Shown: positions 19,735 to 64,000 of the stretch, one piece after another | How positions within the stretch are numbered: position 1 is the first letter of the stretch | Layout of the letters: each line of letters begins with the position of its first letter | Assembly (NCBI GenBank): GCA_949318235.1 | Contig: OX439131.1 | Span: forward strand, 48,150,422-48,214,421 | DNA: 64,000 nt | Direction of reading: 5' to 3' | From: Ecdyonurus torrentis | Lineage: Eukaryota > Arthropoda > Insecta > Ephemeroptera > Heptageniidae | Notes under the pieces: model-generated | What the model was told of the DNA's origin: nothing | Databases searched by the model: none | Seen by the model: the letters and a program-made list of their open reading frames with translations, nothing else | Position numbers and translations under genes: made by a program

Positions 19735-21370
<1,636 letters not shown>

Positions 21371-24547: not shown

Positions 24548-25203
<656 letters not shown>

Positions 25204-25212
25204 TTCCTTTCT

Positions 25213-25700: not shown

Positions 25701-26280
25701 TCAAGTTGGTTTAAATTTTATTTTACAATTTTTGTTTCTTTGAATCATTATATTTATTAAACTATGCTATTGAAACAACAATAAAAAGTTATTCCATCCA
25801 GTCAGCCGTGGGTACTTATCTATATTTAGTATGCACGCTCTAATTAAACTTAATTAAGACACGAAGCCGTAAGATAACACCACCGCACTCCGCGATGTCC
25901 TACTTCGCCAACTTGCACCGATCGTCACCGGGCCACGATAGGGACAGGCATGTGCTAGTTACTACCCAAATGAAATCGACTAAACCACAAAGCTGATATC
26001 AATTTTGCCTGTACGGTTGCTGATAACCGTACATTGCTGATACCTGCAGGGTCCAGACACCCTCTATACGAACTTGCATCTGTGCAACTCCCAACCACAC
26101 ACTGCACTGGTTAGGAGTATTAGCATCACTACTGCATATAAGCAGCACAATCAATGCACTTAAAAATGATCTTTGCCTATACCGCGCCGTCTGATCAAAA
26201 TCTCGATCATGATGAGCACGATGAGCTCCTCTCTCTCTCAGATCTTGTCACAGCGAGCGGCGCGAACTTTGCTATTTGAG
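25700..26280 (+). repeat. Family A, copy 9 (variant subfamily)
   Basis: Same variant core as 20200 and 31450 (GTCAGCCGTGG, GACACGAAGCCGTAAG, CACTGCACTGGTTAGGAG, TGCATATAAGCAGCAC). It continues without a break into family B; the pair A-B is repeated at 31430-32652 plus 39809-39940. Confidence 0.8.
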
Positions 26281-27110
26281 CAAATTTCAGAATTCCCCCC
26301 CCCCCTTAATTAATTTGTACCTCTTGCTATCTGGTTTAAAGTTGTTCATGATTTTTTAAATGAACATAATGTCAGGCAATTCCAACACAAAAGTTTATTT
26401 ATATTTATTTCCACAATAATAATAATAATAATAAGTTTTAGTAATAAGAATAAAATAATAAAAAATTATGAATTTATCAAAATTATGATCATTTCAAAAA
26501 CAAAATTTAAAAAAAAAAAAGGAAATAACCGTAAAAAAAATATACACTTTTTTAAAATTATTTCCGAAACTTTACTGTTTCAAAGCTAATTTTTTTTATA
26601 ATTTTTTTAAGGAATGCAAATTAAATAAATTTGGTATGAATTTCTTGAAGTTATTTTGATTAAAAAAAAAATCATGAACAACTTTTTATCAGTAAAGTAG
26701 TGGTAAAAAATAAACATGCAGTGTTAAAATGTTAATAATAAATTTTAAAAAACGGCTCATACTTTATTATTATAATTATATTTTCTCTTGTAACATTGCC
26801 ACGAGAATGCTACTTGATTGAAGGTGAAGGTAGAAAGATTAACCCGCCAGTACATTATTATTGTTAGTTCCACCACTCTACTGCTTACAAGTTGTTCTAA
26901 AGATTAAATTATCATAATTACATTTGCAATTAAGAACGGATCTCAAGATATCGGGAAATAATTAAAATAATAATCTGTAATTCAAGTATTGTAAAAAAAA
27001 AAACACAAAAAAAGTTTTTTTATAACGCTGGAAATAGTAATAATAATAAACTAAGTAATTAACAAAAATATCACACATTATATTATACACATCACCCTGT
27101 ATAGACCCCT
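26281..27110 (+). repeat. Family B repeat, uninterrupted copy (empty Helitron site)
   Basis: Collinear with 31960-32652 and, after the insertion, 39809-39940: 'cctcttgctatctggttt', 'gagaatgctacttgattgaaggtgaagg', 'aacccgccagtacattatt' and 'tataacgctggaaatagtaat'. At 26973|26974 the sequence reads ...aataataa|tctgtaatt..., which is exactly the join of the two flanks of the block at 32653-39808. Non-coding. Confidence 0.85.
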
Positions 27111-27421
27111 TGCACATCCTTGCGCTTTGTCGCCATGTTTGTGGTGCCTATTAATGCATTGCAAAACATAGGGCAAACTTTATTTTTCGCATAACCGTTT
27201 TTTTCGACTGTATGTGTTTTTCATTTTTCTGATATATATTCTTTTAGCTTTTAGTAGGAACTATAAAAATAAGGCTCATGCTCATATTGAGATTTGAGGA
27301 TTATTTTGCTAATAAAATTATAAAAATGACGTTTTTCCTATGCTCTGTCGGGGCCTAGCTGTGTATTCCTGACCAACAAACTTGGCTCTTAAATATGAGT
27401 GAAACCGGTCTATAGCATATA
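27111..27421. other. Spacer with M300-like sequence
   Basis: 'caaaacatagggcaaact' and similar phrases resemble parts of the M300 element, so this may be a degenerate relative. No gene. Confidence 0.4.
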
Positions 27422-30857: not shown

Positions 30858-31341
<484 letters not shown>

Positions 31342-31429
31342 TAATTCTCTTTTTTGTTTGTTTGTTCGTTTCCTTTCTTTTTCTTTTTTTTTTTAAGAAA
31401 AAAGAAAAGTCTTGCCAATATTTCTTAAA

Positions 31430-31960
31430 TATTACTATATTATACACAACAATAAAAAAGTCAGTCCATCCAGTCAGCCGTGGTACTTATCTATTTTTGG
31501 TATGCACGCTCTAATTAAACTTAATTAAGACACGAAGCCGTAAGATATCACAACTGCACCCTGTATACCTGTCCTCCTCGCCAACTTGCACCGATCATCA
31601 CCGGGCCGCAATAGGGGCAGTTAAGTGCTCCTGTTTTACTCCTACCCAAATGATAACGTCTAAACCACAAAGCTGGTATCAATTTTGCCTGTACGGTTGC
31701 TGATAACCGTACATTGCTGATACCTGCTGGGTCCAGACACTCCGCTATAAGAACTTGCATCTGTGCAACTCCCAGACCACACACTGCACTGGTTAGGAGT
31801 ATTAACATCACTGCTGCATATAAGCTGCTCACTCAATACTCGTGACAATGATCTTTGCCTATACCGCGCCGCCCGATCAAAATCTCGTCTATTTATCGCA
31901 CGATGAGCTCCTCTTTCTCAGGTCTTGTCAAAGCGAGCTTTACTATTTGAACAAATTTCA
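31430..31960 (+). repeat. Family A, copy 11 (variant subfamily)
   Basis: Nearly collinear with 25780-26280, with all core motifs, running into family B. Minus-strand frames of 60-95 codons are accidental. Confidence 0.82.
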
Positions 31961-32652
31961 TAACTTTCTCCCCCCCCCCCCCCCCTTTCATTAATTTGTA
32001 CCTCTTGTTCTCTGGTTTAAAATTTTTCATAAATAAGTTTAAATGAAATAATATCAGGCTATTCCATCACAAAAGTTTATTTATTTATTTCCACAATAAT
32101 GAGTTTTAGTGATAAAAATTAACTAATAAAAAATGATGAATTTACCGAAATTATGTTCACTTTCACTTCAAATACAAAAAAAAAGAAAAAAAAAAAAAAA
32201 AAAAGGAAATAAATTTATTTCCAAAATTTCACTAATGTTTCAAAGCTAATTTTTTATGATCTATGAAAGAATTCAAAACCTTTATATTAAATTTATTTAT
32301 TTTTGTATAAATAAAATTGGGATGAATTTCTTTTGAAGTTATTTTCAGTAAAAAAAAAATCATGATCAATTTTTAATCAGTAAAGTAGTGGTAAAAAATA
32401 AACATTATTGTTTTAATAATAAATTTAAAGAACGGCTCATACTTTTATTATAATTATATTTTTATCTTGTAACATTAACACGAGAATGCTACTTGATTGA
32501 AGGTGAAGGTAGAAAGATTAACCCGCCAGTACATTATTATTGTTAGTTCCACCACTCTACTGCTTACAAGTTGTTCTAAAGATTTAATTATCATAATTAC
32601 ATTTGCAATTAAGAACGAATCTCAAGATATCGGAAAAGAATTAAAATAATAA
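31961..32652 (+). repeat. Family B repeat, Helitron-interrupted copy (left flank)
   Basis: Collinear with 26281-26973 up to ...ttaaaataataa; the next base of the empty site (T) begins again at 39809. Confidence 0.85.
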
Positions 32653-35600
32653 TCACCCCGACGTTAATTACTCAAGGAACGGAAAAAAAACCCGTAAGGA
32701 TAACCCGTAAGTGCGGAAAACGCTTGCGATTTTTTTTTTGCGAGCCAACGGCCCGAAACGACATACCGGCGGATCGGGCTCGCCGAGAGGCATCTTTTCG
32801 TAAATAACTCGCTGAGCGCTAGCTCCCGTAGTTTCGGAGAAAAACGCGAAAAACACGTTTTTTGGACCCTCGCGCCAAATGCTACTCCTCCCGGGGTTCG
32901 GGAGCCACAGACTCCAGATTTAGCCAGAAGGCAGATAAAATGTGGGGGCACAATGCTTCGTTGCAGTTTTTGGAATTTTTTTTTAGGGCCGGAGTTATAG
33001 CGCGTCAAACTTTTTTCGCGATTTCTGAAAAACGGAAACGGCGATTGCCGAAAAACCGCCGGGGGGAATCGACCCTCCTTTGGCCAAAAACTGCGCCCGG
33101 GGGTCCCCTACCGACGACATAGGCGGCGATCGGGGGTCTCAAAGGGCACCGCCAAGATGGCGGTTTTCCCGACTTTTCGACTTCGGAGCCCTCTGGCGGC
33201 CGCGGTATGCGACATGGGACCAAAGTAACGACACATCGCCATAGTAACTCGACCCCGTTCTATCGATTGGCGCAACAATCGAAGTCGAAATCGAAGTCAA
33301 ACAAGGAGAAAAAGCAACCGGAAACAGATTTTTTTATGGGACCGGAAGTCACCAGGAAACCCACTAGACGTGGTTTTGCAAGCCCTACAAAACGTATATC
33401 TCGAAATTTTAATGCGGCGGTAATTTTTACCGTCATCGACGAAAAACCGACGGAATGCGGCGCTTATGCATTGTTTAGATAGGGAAACTTGGACGCGCTT
33501 GCGATTTTTTTCTATGGGTCCGATCTCTTAGATATTTTGGCTACCCCCCCATAACCGACTACGGCGCACAACTTTGCAACGGTGACCTAAGCCGTGGGTC
33601 CCATAGAAACAAGATGGCGGCAATGCGCACGTTTTTTTCGCACTTCCGGTGCTCTGAGCGCGAAAATAAAAAGTGAGACTTTACCTGCATATTTTTGCGA
33701 GAGGAAGACGATGGCGCAGTCAGATTTTCAAAATTCCGAAAATTGGCGCTTACGTTTTTTTTTAAAAAAAATTTCGCGTTTTTTGGGGTTCGAACGCCCG
33801 TAGCAATTCAGGGGTCCGTCGGAGAGCTCTGAAAAAAAAATTTGAGGGTGTTCCGACGAGCCGCGAAACAAGACGGCGCCAACAGTTTTTTTCGGGGTCT
33901 ATAACTTCGGCGCTTTTTGAAAATTTTTGCGCCCGAAAATCGCGCCACGAAAAATTTTATTGAGACCAAAAAGACGCGCCTGGACGAATCCGACAATCAA
34001 ACTGGCTTTCGTTTTTTCAAATTTCCCATAGCAGGCGCGCTACACGCCAAAAACAAAAAAAAAATCGGAAAACGCTTTGGCGGCGCCGTTTTTGGCCAAA
34101 ACGGCCCAAATTTTTTCTCATGCGAGCCAAAATCGCGCGAGGATTCCGAATATCACCGTTTTTTTGCGCTAGCGCCAAAACTGCGCCCGTGAGGATAGTA
34201 TGAAAATAAAAGGGGTTGATTGACTCGAAAAGCACCATTTTGACTTTTTCGGAACGCCGTAGTAATTCAACGGTGCGTCGGAGGTGAAATCTGACGACAA
34301 TCTTAGGTCTTTATTTTTAATGCTCTACAAAATCGCATCAGCACTTTTTTTTGTGATTTCAAAAAATAAGCGTTTTCGGGACGCCGTTTTTTAAAATATC
34401 GGCGCTACGAAAAAATGTTTCAAACAAAAAAGACGCGCAATTAAATTTGCCACACTTTTATTGTCTACATGTTTCCTTAATTTTCCCATAGGTGGCGCGC
34501 AAAACGCGAAAATCCAACAAAAAATTTTCAAAGCGGCGCCTAAATTCGGCTATGGTGATTTTTTGCATTCCGACTGCTGGAATAGTGTTCCACACGTGTT
34601 TTAACATATTTCTGCCAGCGGCAACAATTTTTTTCATTTTAACCCAAAACCACCCATTCTGCCTATGGTTCGACATTGCAACATAGCATTTCGACATATT
34701 TCGGCAACTTAAAATGCTAGGACGATCAAATTTTTATACAAGGTAGTGCTAGGGGTCAGGTGACTACCCGCATCAGAAAAATTCGAAATTTTAAATTTCT
34801 ACTATTTTTTAACGCGCTTCGTAAAATTTCGGCGCTTTCGGCAATAAGTCGGCAGAAAATCGATATATAGTAACTCTGATTGTTGGAGAAAGACGACGAC
34901 ACGAATAACTAACTACGTTTAAAGTTTCATGCGAATCGCAAATTTCAAACTGGAGTTATTAGCTAAACATCGATCTTTATTACTGAAATGGCCAAATTAC
35001 AAAGGGGTTACCCTTGCTTTTTTTTCATGAAACAACTTTTTTTCACAAAGTTATGATTTTAATGTCTATTATAACTAAATCGACCCCGCTGATTACGAAA
35101 ATCGAAACGCCAATTTCCGGAACCTATTACCGGACGACTTAGGACCCTAAAACCAGCTTTTTTCATACTTTTCCCATGAAAAACCGGATGTTAACGCTAT
35201 TTAGGGGTGGGTTGGGGTGACTTTGGGTAAATGTATATTTACTACGATACTTGGGTTACTTTCTATTAAAGTTTCACAAACATCGCACTGCTACTTTATT
35301 TTTGGCGACTTTTTTTTAATTGGCATATGTATAGTATATGGGTATACTTAAGTGGTGTAATGCAAACCATAATTTTTCTTTCATAGCCTGGGGGAATGTA
35401 ATGTACATTTAACATACAAGGGGCACCCAGGGACTCACCATAAAGATATGGGACATGTATTGCGGGTTGCCTATTTTTTACGATTTTTTTAACATTCCAT
35501 TTTGACTATACATGGAACTATATTGATTGCGACAAACGTATGTTTCACTGATATTAATTACAAAAACCACCCACAAGGAAACATAACGTGTTTAAAACAA

Positions 35601-36270
35601 TGTGTTGGACCCCTACTGTTTGTACTCAAACACATGAACGTGTACAGCGGGTTGCCTATTTTTGGCGACTATGGCAACATTAACAACAATACTTCAATAT
35701 ATAAAAACATTTCACAGCAATGCGGGCTGCATACCTCACAGGATGATGCAATGCAGGCTGCATAACCCACAGGGGGCAAAACAGACTACGGACTTGCAAA
35801 ATTCAATGTTTAACGACATAGGAAAAGTGAGGGCGGGGGTTCAACAAGTCAAAATAGGTGAACAAAATGGCCACCCACACGACCTGCGCAGAACACAAAA
35901 AGTCGTACCGACCCGCGATTGCAGAAAAACCAAGACCGACTGCCATGCGCACTCTGCGGATTCAAAGGACACTTGACTTTGTGCTTCCGGCAGGCCGACT
36001 TCCGGTCCTGCGCAGATCCAAACAAACGACGTTAGGGCTGCGCACGCCAGGTTTTTCGACCAAGGGGGAAGGTCTCACCCAACCCACATGCGCACTCACC
36101 TCGGACGACTTCCGGACCTGCGCAGAAGCCCCCAAACCTGCAATTAAAGCCTGCCGCATGCGCAAAATCGACGATAGAGTGCCATTGTGCCACCAACCTT
36201 TGGGGCCCCCACCCACTAGACGCGGGCGGCGGAGTTGCCACCAAGATGGCCGCCCGCGAGAGTGTTCTAG
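32653..36270 (+). mobile_element. Non-autonomous Helitron, copy A (3618 bp)
   Basis: 5' TC (32653-32654) follows host A. 3' CTAG (36267-36270) is preceded, 8 nt upstream, by a perfect 10-bp GC stem, CGCGGGCGGC (36221-36230) / GCCGCCCGCG (36249-36258). Insertion between A and T without target duplication is shown by the paralogous empty site at 26973|26974. CpG-rich, unlike its AT-rich surroundings. No Rep or helicase motifs were found in any frame. A 91-codon frame (33207-33482) has a counterpart at the same offset in copy B. A module of about 455 bp is duplicated inside (about 33795-34250 and 34250-34700). Confidence 0.88.
33207..33482 (+). CDS. Unrecognised 91-codon frame shared by both Helitron units
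   Basis: Begins ATG and ends TAG. A frame of exactly the same length lies at the same offset (554 bp from the unit start) at 36825-37100. About 70% of residues are shared, including NSTPFYRL, SKSKSN, EKKQPE and CGAYALFR. It is basic and Ser/Lys-rich, with no known domain. Substitutions between the copies often change residues, so conservation may just reflect recent duplication. Probably not a working gene. Confidence 0.2.
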   Translation: MRHGTKVTTHRHSNSTPFYRLAQQSKSKSKSNKEKKQPETDFFMGPEVTRKPTRRGFASPTKRISRNFNAAVIFTVIDEKPTECGAYALFR

Positions 36271-39200
36271 TCCTCCTACTATTAATTACTCAAGAGACCG
36301 CGAAAAAACCCATAAGAATAACATTGGAAAAGCGTTCGCTCTTGCGATTTTTTTTTTGCGAGCGAATCGCCCAAACCGACATACCGGGAGATCGGGCTCA
36401 CCGAGGGGCGTCTTTTCGCTAACCGCGTGCCAAGCGCTCCGACGCGAACTTTCGGCGCAAAACGCGAAAAACACGTTTTTTGGACCCTCACGCCAAACTA
36501 TATTTCGCCCGGGGTTTCGGAGCCACGGGGACCAAACTCGGCCATCGGGCAGTCGACATGTCGGGACGCAACGCCAAGTTGCATTTTTTTCGATTTCGTC
36601 TCCGTTCCGGAGATACGGCGCGCCAAACTTTTTTCGCGATTCTGGAAAAACGGAAACGGCGATTGCCGAAAAACCGCCGCGGGGAATCGACCCTCCTTTA
36701 GCCAAAAACTGCGCCCGGGGGACCCCTACCGACGACATAGGCGGCGATCGGGGGTCTCGAAGGGCACCGCCAAGATGGCGGTTTTCCCGGTTTTTCGACT
36801 TCGGAGCCCTCTGGCGGCGGTTGTATGCGTGCCAGAGCGAAAACGAGGACACATCGCAATAGTAACTCGACCCCGTTCTATCGATTGCACCAACAATTGA
36901 AGTCGAAATCGAAGTCGAACCCGGAGAAAAAGCAACCGGAACCAGATTTTCTTATAGGACCGGAAGTCACCTGGCAACCCACAAGACGTGGTTTTGCAAG
37001 CCCTACAAAACGTTTATCTCGAAATTTTGATGAGACGGTAAAATCGGCCGTTATAAACGAAAAACGGACAAAATGCGGCGCTTACGCATTGTTTAGATAG
37101 GGAAACTTCGACGCGCTCGCGATTTTTTTCTACGGGTCCGATGTCTTAGATATTTTGGCTACCCCCCCATAACCGACCACGGCGCACAACTTTGCAACGG
37201 TGACCTAAGCGCTGGATCCCATAGAAACAAGATGGCGGCAATGCGCACGTTTTTTTCGCACTTCCGGTGCTCGCAGCGCGAAAATAAAAAATGAGACTTT
37301 ACCTGCATATTTTGACGAGAGGAAGACGATGGCGCAATCAGATTTACAAAATTCCGAAAATTGGCGCTTTCGTTTTTTTTTTATAAAAAAATCGCGTTTT
37401 TTTGTGTTCAAACGCCCGTAGCAATTCAGGGGTGCGTCGGAGAGCTCTGAAAAAAAAATTTGAGGGAGTTCCGACGAGCCGCGGAACAAGATGGCGCCAA
37501 CCGTTTGTTTCGCGGTTCATAACTTCGGCGCTTTTTGAAATTTTTTGCGCCCGAAAATGGCGCCACGAAAAATTTTATGGAAACCAAAAAGACGCGCCTC
37601 GACGAATCCGACAATCAAACTGCCCTTCGTTTTTTCGAATTTCCCATAGCAAGCGCGCTAGACGCCAAAAACAAAAAAAATTTCGGAAAACGCTCTGACA
37701 GCGCCGTTTTCGGCCGAAACGGCCCGAAATTTTTCTCATGCGAGGTAAAATCGCGCGAGGATTCCGAATATCACCGTTTTTTTGCGCTAGCGTGAAAACT
37801 GCGCCCGTGAGGATAGTATGAAAATAAAAGGGGGTGATTGACTCAAAAAGCACCATTTTGACACCTTCGGAACGCCGTAGTAATTCAACGGTGCGTCGGA
37901 GGTGAAATCTGAGGAAATTCTTATGTCTTTATTTTTTGTGCTCTACAAAATTGCTTCAACACTTTTTTTTGTGACTTCAGAAAATAAGCGTTTTCGGGAT
38001 GCCGTTTTTTTTAATATCGGCGCTACAAAAAAATGCTTCCAACAAAAAAGACGCGCAATTAAATTTGCAACACTTTTAATGTCAATATAATTTTCGATAT
38101 TTCCCATAGGCGGCGCGCAAAACGCGAAAAACCAACCAAAAATTTTCAAAGCGGCGCCAAAATTCGGCTATTGTGATTTTTTGCAATCTGACTGCTGGAA
38201 TCGTGTTTGACACGTGTTTTGAGCTATTTCTGCCATCGGCGACAATTTTTTTGGTTTCAACCCAAAACCAGCGATTCTGCCTATGGTTCGACATTGAAAC
38301 ATAGGATTTCGGCAAGTTACAATGCTAGGACGACGAAATTTTTATACAAGGTAGTGCTAGGGGCCATTTGACTTCCCGCACCAGAAAAATTCAAAATTTT
38401 AAATATCTACTATTTTTTAACGCGCTACGTAAAATTTCGACGCTTTCGGCAATATGTCGGCGCTAAATCGACATAGCATCGATCTGATTGTTGGAGATGG
38501 GCGACGACATGAATATTAAAATATGTTTCAGGTTTCATGAACATCGCATTTTTTAAACTCGAGTTATTAAGGAAACATCGATCTTTATTACGACAAGGGC
38601 CAAATTACAAAGGGGTTACCCTTGCTTTTTTTCATGAAACAACTTTTTTTCACAAAGTTGTGATCTTAATGTCTATTATGACTAAATCGACCACGCTGAT
38701 CACGAAAATGGAAACGCCAATTTCCGGGACCTATTACCGGACGAGTTAGGACCCTAAAACCAGCTTTTTCTGTACTTTTTGGATGAAAAACCGGATGTTA
38801 ATGCTATTTGGAGATGGGTTGGGGTGAATTTGGCCATATACATATTTCCAGCCATACTTGGGTTACTTTCTATTAAAGTTTCAAAAACATCGCACTGCAA
38901 TTTTTTTTTTTGCGATTTTTTTTTAATTGGCATATGTATAGTATATGGGTATACTTAAGTGGTGTAATGCAAACCATAATTTTTCTTTCATAGCCTGTGG
39001 GAATGTAATGGTCATTTAATGGTCATTATGTTTTGCGGGTTGCCTATTTTTTACGATTTTATATATATTGCATTTTGACTATACATGGAACTACATGGAG
39101 TGCGACAAACTTATGTTTTACTAATATTAATTACAAAAACGACCCACAATGCAATATAACGTGCTTAATACATTGTGTCGGGCTCCTACTGTTTGCAATC

Positions 39201-39808
39201 AAACACATGTACGTGTACAGCGGGTTGCCTATTTTTGGCGACTATTGCAGCATTAACAACAATACTTCTATATATAAGAACATTTAACAGCAATGCGGGC
39301 TGCATATCTTACAGGATGATGCAATGAAGGCTGCATAACCCAAAGGGGGCCAAACAGACTACGGACTTGCAAAATTCCATGTTTAACGAAATTTGAAGAG
39401 TGAGCGCGGGGGTTCAACAAGTCAAAATTGGTGAACAAACTGGCAACCCAAACGACCTGCGCACCACACCTAAAGTCATACCGACATGCAATTGCAGCAA
39501 AACTAAAGTGAAATGCCATGAGCACTCTACGGATTCGAGTGACACTTGATAACCCACTTCCGGCCAGCATACTTCCGGTCCTGCGCAGAACCAAACAAGC
39601 AACGTTAGGGCTGCGCACGACACGTTTTTCGCACTTACATCGGTCTACTTCCGGATTTGCGCAAAAGCACAAAGACCTGCAATGAACGACTGCCGCGTGC
39701 GCAAAATCGACGATAGAGTGCCAATGCGTGGTCTCTGGGCCCCACCAACGACTAGCCGCGGGCGGCTGAGCGTCCCACGGGGGACCGGCCCGCCCGCCGT
39801 TACTCTAG
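36271..39808 (+). mobile_element. Non-autonomous Helitron, copy B (3538 bp), head-to-tail with copy A
   Basis: Starts TC immediately after copy A's CTAG and shares TTAATTACTCAAG near its 5' end. It ends CTAG (39805-39808) followed by host T, with a GC stem GCGGGCGG (39758-39765) / CCGCCCGC (39790-39797) upstream. It aligns with copy A along its whole length with substitutions and small indels. Same CpG-rich composition and motifs. A 334-codon frame spanning the A/B junction (35858-36862) crosses two element ends and is not a gene. Confidence 0.88.
36825..37100 (+). CDS. Copy B counterpart of the 91-codon Helitron frame
   Basis: Same offset, length and terminal residues as 33207-33482. It is the only small frame that stays open and collinear in both units. 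No domain recognised; likely incidental. Confidence 0.2.
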   Translation: MRARAKTRTHRNSNSTPFYRLHQQLKSKSKSNPEKKQPEPDFLIGPEVTWQPTRRGFASPTKRLSRNFDETVKSAVINEKRTKCGAYALFR

Positions 39809-39950
39809 TCTGTAATTTAATTATTGTAAAAAAAAAAAAATAAAAAAAAAAATAAAAAAGTTTTTTATAACGCTGGAAATAGTAATAATAATAAACTTAG
39901 TAATTTGATTATTAACAAAAATATCACACACCCTGTATAGAACTCTTGCT
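39809..39950 (+). repeat. Family B repeat, right flank of the Helitron insertion
   Basis: Begins tctgtaatt and continues 'tataacgctggaaatagtaataataataaact', matching 26974-27110. Confidence 0.85.
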
Positions 39951-60335: not shown

Positions 60336-62755
60336 TTATGTTAATTGGGGATATAATAAAGATGGTGTTGGCATTTTCTGACTTTTAGCTATATTAGGAA
60401 GTTCGATAATTTTACTGAAGGTAACATGGGGTAAGGGAATATTAATTCTAGTTTTAGGTTTGAAACAAAAACATTTTTTACAAAAACATACAAGAACAGT
60501 AATTATAATCATGAGTGATAGTATACCAAATGGATTGACAATAGAGAACCAAAATGAACGTTTAGTATTATAATACATGAGTGAATTCTCATTGATGTGT
60601 TGCTGTATTTTATTGATATCAATTTTAGTGTTAGGATTAAGCAACAATGAATTGATAGTGTGTTTAAGGTCATCTAAATTAAGATCAGAAAAGTTAGCAA
60701 AATTGATTTTGAAAGGTATAATACCTTTTAAGGTAGGATAATTAAAATTTAAAGATATATTATAAGTGATATTAATTAAAAATTGACTATTTAAGATAAA
60801 ATTAGTACCATGAAAAGAACAAGAAGATGAATTTTGAATAATACCATGTTCTTTCAATAAAATAGTTTCTGTAGTTATAGTTTTATTATTATAGTAACAT
60901 ATAATTGTTACATGAGAGGGTTTTGTCATTGAAAAAATAACATTAATGTTTATTCTTTTAAAAAATGGAGTAACGGCTTTAGTAATCAAACGTTGACAAT
61001 TTGGACAAGTTACATTAAAAAATAAATCTACTTCACAAGATTGGACGGACATATCAAATATGATGTCATTATATAAACACAAAGTTGTAAGTGGATTTGA
61101 ATTTACGCAAGTTAAATCATTATCAGTGGAGAAATGAGTATTATTAAGAGTATTAATAAAAAAAATTCTGTTTTACATTCCATTCGGAAAATATATCGAA
61201 ATCAGTTTGAAAAAATGGAATAGGTTGAATTTTGAAATGATACGTATTTTTATTAGAAATAAGAGGAAGAGATATTATGAGTATTAAACTTGTATAAGAT
61301 TGAAAATAGTTTATGTGAGCTAATTTATAAAAATATTCAATATTATTGACTTCGACTGTATGAGGAATGGAAAACTCATTAGGAACAGTTAATTCTAAGG
61401 TATGTAAAATAGAAAGGAATTTATTTGGGGGAATAAGTGTGTGACTCAAATGTGTATATTAACTTTCTGAAATTGATGTACGGAAAGACATTAGATCAAG
61501 TCTCGCTTTAGTTAAAATGACATTAAATTCAGACAAAAGAGATAAAAAATTGATATCAGATTCTAATTTATTGGATACAATTTCAAAGTTAATAACTTTT
61601 TGTTTGAGATTACTTTGAAGTAATTCAAATTGCGTAACAAGTCTTTCAGTAATATTTTTAAGAGTTACTGTATTATATTGTATTTGTTCCTCTACATTTT
61701 TAATATATATAACTGTACTATTTAAATTGAATTGAATATTTTTAGTTGATTTAACAAGTGAATTAAAATTTGAAATTATTTCTTGTTTATCGTCTTCATT
61801 TAAAGTGCCATATAAAAAATGGTGAAATTTACTTGTGAATAAAATAAAGATCGTTTTGATATTGAATGATTAGTAGGAAGAATTGTAGAGATTAGATCAA
61901 ATTCAGTAGCATATGATTGAAGTAAAATTTGAGTAGTAGAATAAGAATTTAAAAATTGTTTTGATAGTTTTGACTCACATTTAAGAACAATATTTGATAA
62001 TGATTTTTCAACTGTGTTGACATTTTTAATTATTATATCATGATCAGTAAATATTAGAGCTGTAAATTGAAAACGGGTCGAGCACCCGCCCGGGCCAAAA
62101 TCTTCGGGGGCTCGTTTTTTTGAAAATGGTAAACCCAGGTTTCGAGCTTTTAGCTCGAAAACGAGCTTTTTCGAGTTAAGCTCGTAAATGACTTGTGAAA
62201 AAAACGAGCTTTTGAAAATAAATCGAGCTAAAGTACAATTTTTGAAGAAAGCAAAGAAATAAATGTTTTTAATTTTTGTTTAAAATGGCCTTTTTAATAT
62301 TCTATCATGCAAAATAAGCTGTTTAAAATATTTTAAAATATTTCTTTATTTTATTTATGACTTTTATCCTTCAAAAACAAATTTTTCATAATAAAAATCG
62401 AGCTTTTTTCCTCATAGGCTCGAAGGCTCGTTTTTAAACTTTGGCTCAAATGTCGAGCTTTCCGAGCTTTGGCTCGTTTTTAGAGTTTAAGCTCGATTTC
62501 AAGCTAAACCCGGGTTTCAAGCCAAACCGGGCTAAAAATTTTGAACCCGGGCTAAAAATATTTCGAGTTTTTTACAGCTCTAGTAAATATATTATCAAAA
62601 TTAATATTTAAAGCGATTCTAGCACGACCAGTGATTAAGTTTATATAAGATTCTTTACCAAATATTGTACCGGCATTATTAGGCTGAAAAAATAATGCAT
62701 TATTTACATTTAAATTTTTAAAACATACAAAAATAATTAGCAAAATAGTGATCAT
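60336..62755 (-). pseudogene. env: Broken envelope (env) gene of an errantivirus-like Ty3/gypsy element
   Basis: It reads on the minus strand after pol. The ATG at 62753-62755 starts a hydrophobic leader. About 75 codons in, a 528-bp hAT (62055-62582) interrupts the gene. Next come a basic pair that may be a cleavage site, and FLYGTLNEDD (about 61800-61830), which matches the FGTLDxxD signature of F-type fusion proteins in errantiviruses and baculoviruses. A helical stretch follows, then an in-frame TAA near 61464. The last piece (60336-61082) has CPNC, many N-glycosylation sites, a membrane anchor near residues 185-205 and a Cys-rich tail. Frame changes near 61845 and at the T-run near 61160 also break it, so no full protein can be made. 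Confidence 0.75.
62055..62582. mobile_element. 528-bp hAT element inside env, exact TSD
   Basis: The ends are TAGAGCTGTAAA and TTTACAGCTCTA. The TSDs GTAAATAT at 62047-62054 and 62583-62590 are identical. The interior consists of many CGAGCTTTT / AAAAGCTCG words in both orientations and a CCCGGGC-rich left part. Non-coding. Confidence 0.93.
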
Positions 62756-62856
62756 TTTTACGATAAAATGTATAATATAAACTAAACAAAAAAAAAACTT
62801 TAACCCCAAAAAAAAAAAAATATTATTTAATGATATTTAATATAATTTTACAATGA

Positions 62857-64000
62857 TTATTTTGATGAGCCTATCAATTTATTATAAAAACCTGATTGAG
62901 TTCTAGCTATTGTTTGACGTAAATTACGATGTAATTTCGTGTTGATTTGTTGCGGTCTCGGAATGATAGCAGCTGATGTTGATGTTGATTGAGAATTCGA
63001 TGTATCAGCGCTCGGTGTTGGTAGTGTAGGCACTGGTGACGTAACTCTTTGTTGTTGCGGCACAGATGTTGTTGTTGTTGTTGTATCATCAGTCTGTGGT
63101 CAAGGAGAAACAAGGGAGTTACAAGTCCAATGCTTTGCTTTGTACAATCTTAAACGATTAGCGTGTACTAACAATTTCCTATTAGCTTTTTGAATTAAAT
63201 AATTACATGGAGGTTTGACAGCAATTATAGTATGAGGACCAGTGTGTTTTATTGTAAGTTTACGACTGTGTCCTACTGGTACGATAGGATTATTTAACAT
63301 TACTAAATCATTAACTTTAAATACATGAGGATTAAGATTTTTATTATATTTTTTAGCTTGAAGTTGTTCGGCCTCTTTATTACAAATTTGTATATCGCTC
63401 CATACTCTACGTAATTTACCACTTAATTGTTTTACATGTTCATTTACAATAGGATTTGTAGCATTATCATGATTTTGAATTACAGTGAAAGGAGAATTCT
63501 TTGAACGACCATATAATACTTCATATGGACTATATGGCTCTAGGCTAGAATGAGGTGAATTATTATAACTTGACACAGCATAATCAAGTAACTCATCCCA
63601 ATTATTTTGTGCTTTATTTACATAGAAACTTAGCCATCGTTTTATTGTTTTATGAATGGCTTCAGTACGGTCATTGCCCATACTATGATATGCAGAACTA
63701 CGAAGACGATCAATATTTAATAATTTACAAAGATCAGTCTTAATGTTTGATATTAAATTAGCACCTTGATCAGTGATCCATGCCTTCGGAATTTGATATT
63801 TAGGAATTAAATGTTTGAGAATATTACGTGCTATAAGTTCAGAGGTTTGATTACGCATAGGAACCATAATCAAATAACGAGAGAAATGATCAATTATAGT
63901 TAAAATATATTTATTTCCTTATTTTGTTACTGGTAGTTCAGTAATATCCAAACCAACACGTTCAAATGGAGCAAAAATATCAGGCAATTGTTCTAATTAA
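62857..64000 (-). pseudogene. pol: Integrase and C-terminal tail of Ty3/gypsy pol (3' part, broken)
   Basis: The minus-strand frame enters from beyond the window. It shows FERVG, LPVTK, then a TAA stop (63919-63921) where these integrases have a conserved position before GNKYIL. The catalytic triad is D in IIDHFSRY (63889-63891), D in WITDQGAN, and E in NDRTEAIHK, with 35 residues between the last two (D,D35E). A GPY/F-like module (KHTGPHTII...HANRLRLYK) follows at about 63140-63290. A TGA at 63100-63102 separates it from an in-frame Thr/Pro/Gln/Ser-rich tail ending at 62857. A CpG to TpG change could explain the TGA. Start and reverse transcriptase lie outside the window. Confidence 0.88.

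Follow-up and report, generated by a model that had tools for sequence, protein, structure and literature searches.

The window analysed here, a 64,000-nucleotide stretch of the Ecdyonurus torrentis genome (G000:C10:48150422-48214421), contains two non-autonomous Helitrons joined head to tail on the forward strand. Unit 1 (u1; 32653..36270, 3618 bp) and unit 2 (u2; 36271..39808, 3538 bp) each begin with TC and end with CTAG, and they meet at a direct CTAG|TC junction (36267..36272) with zero host bases between them. These lengths, ends and junction are all as reported in a preliminary description of the sequence. The left end of u1 is of class b, TCACCCCGACG, and that of u2 is TCCTCCTACTATTAATT. 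End-to-end alignment shows that the two units are not nearly identical repeats: they differ at 491 of 3536 ungapped columns (13.9%; K80 distance of 0.130 at non-CpG sites), and the mismatches are clustered (variance/mean of 3.15, against a highest value of 1.50 in 5000 permutations). CpG decay between the units is symmetrical (23 versus 21 sites) and is uninformative as a clock. No Rfam or tRNA match was found within the window, the one unit-2 open reading frame tried had no protein relatives, and searches with a single exact 40-base pattern in each collection returned 0 copies in viral contigs and 0 in GTDB genomes.

The pair lies within a member of a dispersed repeat, which forms the left host flank (31418..32652, forward strand) and continues in the right host flank (39809..39948, forward strand). 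A paralogue of this repeat in the same window, aligned to the left flank at 25750-26973 and to the right flank at approximately 26974-27115, supplies the empty site, AATAATAA|TCTGTAATT (26966..26982, forward strand). The outer flanks, ending in AATAATAA and beginning with TCTGTAATT, close at 26973|26974, where AATAATAATCTGTAATT is present verbatim and the repeat runs uninterrupted, so the base-exact empty site originally proposed holds. Verbatim flank joins of 10+10 bases or longer were not found at the empty site, because the paralogue has diverged. The alignment of the flanks to the paralogue extends about 1.2 kb to the left and about 140 bp to the right, with differences at 20 of 329 sites close to the insertion and at 156 of 1176 columns over the left flank as a whole. 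We did not use the paralogous flank as an insertion clock (20/329, versus 491/3536 between the units), because divergence is much higher at greater distances along that flank.

A search of the 503-Mb assembly with the first 448 bp of u1 returned 53 candidates, 40 of which were scored. Most of the scored matches (32 of 40) were clustered, with at least two matches spaced a few kilobases apart, and 8 were solitary. We read the regions of 35 scored matches, including the window's own two, and left out five weak single matches (on contigs C11, C4 (two), C26 and C21); two arrays were read with gaps, of 3 kb inside the first unit of the C20 array and in the central part of the unit that follows the coding unit described below. 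The 35 regions form 13 loci, 10 of which are chains. Chains and their derivatives are located in the window and on C12 (31.16 Mb), C8 (34.66 Mb), C4 (26.03 Mb), C26 (34.86 Mb), C8 (11.88 Mb), C15 (16.60 Mb), C1 (45.44 Mb), C20 (16.54-16.58 Mb), C10 (45.24-45.27 Mb) and C12 (0.82 Mb), the last of which looks like a pair reduced by deletion; monomers are found on C10 (45.83 Mb) and C1 (27.7 Mb). Chains range from two units to nine (the C20 array, about 45 kb), and we read 24 unit-unit junctions across the family. The C20 array includes two 7.27-kb u3 units that are 99.4% alike, each behind a different u1, and the C10 array is closed, behind its coding unit, by a unit with a u3-like start whose end is 99.4-99.6% identical to u3 over 470 bp. 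The head-to-tail organisation first noted for the window is supported, and its relatives are mostly chains too.

Elements with TC and CTAG ends occupy A|T sites at all 13 loci, which bears out their identification as Helitrons. Because the target in the window begins with TC, its insertion point taken alone is ambiguous by 2 bp, and the TC could be a duplication. Among the 13 loci, however, every right flank begins with T and a single one, that of the window, begins with TC, so we rejected the reading of TC as a target-site duplication rather than as the element's own terminus. A is the last base of all 12 left flanks in the tally; the C20 array stands outside it, since the alignment placed its start 3 bp inside the unit, and by eye it reads A|TCACCCCAAAC. 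With right flanks that begin with T and rarely with TC, and left flanks that end in A, both TC and CTAG belong to the element, and insertion takes place between A and T without duplication, as had been proposed. The window units and their relatives at the 13 loci thus carry the 5' TC and 3' CTRR (here CTAG) of canonical Helitrons, and the pair is a member of a canonical Helitron family. Helentrons insert at T|T and have subterminal inverted repeats; we rejected this assignment for the present family, which is set apart by its A|T targets and its CTAG end. Comparison of 300-bp flanks from 11 loci and the right side of C20 revealed no shared insertion sites. The left flank of the C15 locus carries a dispersed repeat.

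The 35 right ends listed fall into two classes, which are distinguished by the hairpin loop and by the spacer that precedes CTAG. The I-type right end of u1 (36221..36270, forward strand) consists of a 10-bp stem with an 18-nt loop, followed by 8 nt and CTAG, and the T-type right end of u2 (39758..39808, forward strand) consists of a two-part hairpin followed by CTAG. The stem of u1 ends 12 nt and the hairpin of u2 ends 11 nt before the 3' end, so both lie at the distance of about 10-12 nt expected of a Helitron. A hairpin before CTAG had been described for both units. For u1, this is upheld by the fold itself: the stem is perfect, and its DNA fold (-20 kcal/mol, z -3.05) was equalled by 0 of 200 shuffled sequences. 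For u2, the fold (-17.9) was matched by 51 of 200 shuffles and alone is no better than chance, so that the case for this hairpin rests on its invariance across copies. T-type ends in 16 units comprise two variants that differ at one column. Across 18 u1 units, no column varies in the last 50 nt of the I-type end, as compared with 68 of 251 adjacent columns (p = 1.1e-6), which indicates that this end is conserved even though none of its copies was observed next to host DNA.

The two classes of right end occupy different positions in the chains. The exact 31-nt core of the I-type end occurs 21 times genome-wide, always inside the regions that we read; 20 of these ends are complete and the remaining one is cut by a deletion. 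All 20 complete exact copies run into another unit, 14 directly at TC and 6 across a TCA tract, and none faces host DNA. By contrast, 13 of the 17 T-type ends read face the host, one per locus, and 4 are internal, so that all 13 host-facing 3' ends are T-type (0/20 versus 13/17, Fisher p = 6.7e-7, with units within a locus not being independent). The end of the C10 array, which was read last and after the rule had been noticed, is T-type and obeys it. Left ends differ in position as well: class a (TCACCCCGCCC) faces the host in 6 of 7 units and class b in 3 of 13 (p = 0.017), with C12_5e and the coding unit counted among the 13 and the first two units of C20 (TCACCCCAAAC) excluded.

TCA tracts recur in this family. 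Left flanks end in TCA at 8 of 12 loci, as compared with 3.6% of the AT dinucleotides in the window (p = 1.1e-9), and in 6 of the 20 I-type junctions (TCA)n separates CTAG from the beginning of the following u1: three on C12, with 8, 20 and 30 repeats, and one such junction each on C10, C26 and C20. None of the 13 right flanks carries such a tract. It may be that every A|TC inside a TCA tract can serve for 5' nicking.

A partner encoding Rep and helicase and sharing the ends of the pair, for which a search had been proposed, was found in the C10 array, where it stands third (G000:C10:45248554-45264840, 16,287 bp). Its identity to window u1 is 91.8% in the first 2.6 kb and 84.7% in the final 391 bp. 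It combines a u1-class left end with an I-type right end that is two bases off the I-type sequence. Its open stretches, presumably exons, match the Helitron_like_N domain of Rep (PF14214, E = 1.3e-39) and the PIF1 helicase (PF05970, E = 7.1e-38; Pif1_2B, E = 8e-14). The Rep stretch has 71 protein relatives at E = 0.001 or better among 502 candidates, the best being 54% identical over 83%. The family thus includes an autonomous-type relative with predicted Rep and PIF1-like helicase domains and shared ends.

First and second units have different histories. At seven loci with a u1-u2 pair, the first units differ more from one another (4.0-9.9%) than the second units do (0.2-2.8%) in 21 of 21 locus pairs (divergence sets taken without C12s, C12_5e and C8a_1, and matrices without u3, partial and coding units). 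Second units (n = 11) have a mean pairwise difference of 1.68% and a maximum of 3.64%, and those of the C26 locus and of C1 at 27.7 Mb are separated by zero substitutions. The u2 of the window is 0.62% from its nearest relative, on another contig, and differs by 2.1-2.2% from its counterparts on C8 (34.66 Mb) and C15. The u2 group is therefore young and more uniform than the u1 pool, yet itself not uniform. First units (n = 18) differ by 7.6% on average, with the nearest whole-unit relative at 3.8-7.0% (5.2% for window u1). When window u1 was divided into 24 segments of 150 bp, 13 matched some other unit at 149 or more of 150 positions, with the partner changing along the unit, and one 866-bp tract recurs, with no more than one mismatch, in a unit from a different contig (simulated 99.9th percentile, 250). 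First units are thus patchworks of one another. Because of these different histories and the patchwork nature of first units, the two kinds of unit appear to have been combined repeatedly, each time at CTAG|TC, and we rejected the spread of a single dimer lineage, with which the 21/21 locus pairs disagree. Private substitutions are more numerous in u1 than in the neighbouring u2 at 7 of 7 loci (p = 0.008), which, taken alone, makes u1 the older unit and would fit later docking of u2. The I-type end, however, has 0 private changes in 900 sites, as compared with 4.9 expected (P = 0.007), suggesting that much u1 variation pre-dates insertion and was inherited from unsampled donors, a reading that requires donors missing from the assembly. 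As these two observations point in opposite directions, we dropped the reading of the fixed unit order as an order of age.

The preliminary description ascribed the pair to one insertion that delivered both units. Such delivery may have occurred, but its simple form, in which one template is copied twice, is unlikely, because it predicts near-identity, yet the units differ by 13.9% and have their nearest relatives at different loci, and first and second units differ in history in 21/21 locus pairs; later patchwork exchange blurs the dating. One insertion of a pre-assembled mixed pair, or stepwise addition, is possible. The explanation that we consider best, at close to an even chance, is that units of the family are end-joined head to tail, the I-type end being join-only and the T-type end serving as the exit. 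The transposase would join the CTAG of one unit to the TC of another and so form chains, using the same chemistry as Helitron circle closure, but between different units. The I-type end would join only to another unit and the T-type end to host T as well; were the T-type end alone joinable to host T, chains would therefore finish with a T-type unit. A join-only end would always lie inside the chain and remain conserved, and the chain would have to be closed by a T-type partner, which is consistent with the census. At the window, a member of the diverse, patchwork u1 pool would have been joined to a member of the young u2 group, either before a single insertion or when u1 was added to a u2 already in place, at the A|TC nick of the latter. 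We infer both the joining reaction and the join-only and exit roles. With more reserve, we propose a division of labour between a conserved join-only hairpin, present in the coding element too, and an exit hairpin, by which the family would move and accumulate as chains with a fixed last unit.

The main alternative is read-through of a mixed-dimer donor, in which replication would begin at a u1 left end, pass the I-type end as a weak terminator and stop at the next T-type end, so that one insertion would deliver the pair. It accounts for the T-type last unit in every chain read and is closer to the model first put forward. According to the available part of the Helraiser report, an element without its hairpin reads on to a downstream terminator, and an altered loop cut transposition about as much as deletion of the hairpin (PMC4778049); it is in the loop and spacer that the two classes differ. 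However, this model does not fit the different u1 and u2 histories across loci (21/21 pairs) and leaves the invariance of the I-type end unexplained, and we consider it rather unlikely. We also think it unlikely that u1 was resident first and that a young u2 docked at its CTAG|T nick, in a non-canonical G|T insertion. Such docking would require u1 to have once been alone in the host at each locus, yet none of the 20 complete I-type ends faces host DNA, and the absence of private changes in that end (0/900) also argues against it, even though u2 is younger than u1 by both nearest neighbour and private substitutions. For the maize pair discussed below, the available text lists lines with the left element only and gives insertion of the right element at GT as one of two readings (PMC2267711). 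Post-insertion growth of arrays, through unequal crossing-over or inter-array gene conversion, would explain the patchwork segments of u1 and the shared 866-bp tract, and it probably acts in addition to end-joining. As the sole cause it is very improbable, given the mixed-class junctions: on its own it would neither generate base-exact CTAG|TC junctions linking units of different classes nor account for near-identical u2 or u3 units behind different u1 units.

In the reports available to us, the origin of head-to-tail Helitrons has been argued from few loci, as read-through or as consecutive insertion. The 24 junctions, two nearly invariant 3'-end classes, strict positional rule, coding relative and neighbours of mixed age described here make the question testable. 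If end-joining with join-only and exit ends is correct, 3'-end specificity, beyond hairpin strength, would determine if a Helitron departs singly or as part of a chain. Both tandem Helitrons and abutting insertions have been published before; what is new here is a variant of tandem organisation with a positional rule. We found no report of two right-end classes with such a rule in the literature consulted, which lay largely outside subscription journals and was in part available as excerpts.

The comparisons that follow are based on the accessible portions of the cited reports. The Helibat1/Helraiser elements of bats resemble the window family in their TC and CTAG ends, 3' hairpin, A|T target without duplication and Rep-helicase, and their circles share the exact CTAG-TC junction of the window pair (PMC4778049, PMC5876387). 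In Helraiser circles TC is joined directly to CTAG, and the palindrome is dispensable for circle formation (PMC4778049). These accounts mention that Helitrons form tandem arrays in plants and bats and that some abut one another in Myotis but, in the portions accessible, no two-class 3'-end rule, unlike what is seen in the window family (PMC4778049, PMC5876387). The FoHeli composites of Fusarium, with self-insertion and with elements that have several 5' termini and one 3' terminus, are similar in outline, and three tandem copies are reported in Metarhizium; however, FoHeli elements are non-canonical Helitrons whose duplicated 5' sequence is typically <200 bp, whereas here whole units are repeated (PMC5148889). 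The centromeric Helitron arrays of plants are likewise tandem and have been ascribed to rolling-circle amplification or circular intermediates (Xiong et al. 2016). Adjacent maize Helitrons described by Du et al. (2008) consist, as here, of two unlike units joined head to tail at CTAG|TC (a G/T junction; PMC2267711). Those authors concluded that the maize elements were inserted consecutively, in an unclear order; of the 11 lines that allowed a conclusion, both elements were present in 2, the left only in 3 and neither in 6 (PMC2267711). The maize case concerns one locus and units with different genes, whereas the present one involves a single family, 13 loci and a fixed class of last unit (PMC2267711).

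Immediately 5' of the left ends of u1 units, the kind represented by the first member (32653-36270) of the head-to-tail Helitron pair in the window, we observed (TCA)n tracts, some at junctions with host DNA and others separating CTAG from the unit that comes after it. Examples, among others, lie at G000:C12:31163966-31176660, G000:C10:45241127 and G000:C8:34664924. At host junctions, with monomers of u2 (the kind of the second member, 36271-39808) counted in, 8 of the 12 left flanks tallied ended in TCA, and a (TCA)n tract was found in none of 13 right flanks. Between CTAG and the following unit, such tracts were present at 6 of 20 junctions formed by I-type right ends, the class of u1. Comparison of 35 right ends of both classes (I-type, and T-type as in u2) revealed an additional conserved CTAG closely upstream of the hairpin, at window positions 36216-36219 and at the equivalent position in the others; the hairpin is thus flanked by CTAG on both sides.

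The array on contig C20 contains two 7.27-kb units of a third kind, u3 (G000:C20:16556635-16563902 and G000:C20:16567709-16574973), which are 99.4% identical, contain repeats of about 1 kb and are each preceded by their own, different u1 unit.

Elsewhere in the window, long tetranucleotide arrays (AAGA, TTTC, CTTT, TCTA) occupy 230-825, 19930-20152, 24548-25212 and 30861-31341, some adjoining copies of the dispersed repeat that contains the empty site (26973|26974). On the minus strand, a retroelement fragment (60336-63918) encodes the core of an integrase (PF00665, E 1.6e-9); in the other two open stretches that were scanned, no family reached the curated cut-off.

Both window units are CpG-rich, with observed/expected ratios of 1.40 (32653-36270) and 1.53 (36271-39808) versus 0.91 elsewhere. 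They also contain the words ACTTCCGG, TGCGCA and AAGATGGCGGC, which we take to resemble ETS, NRF-1 and YY1 sites.
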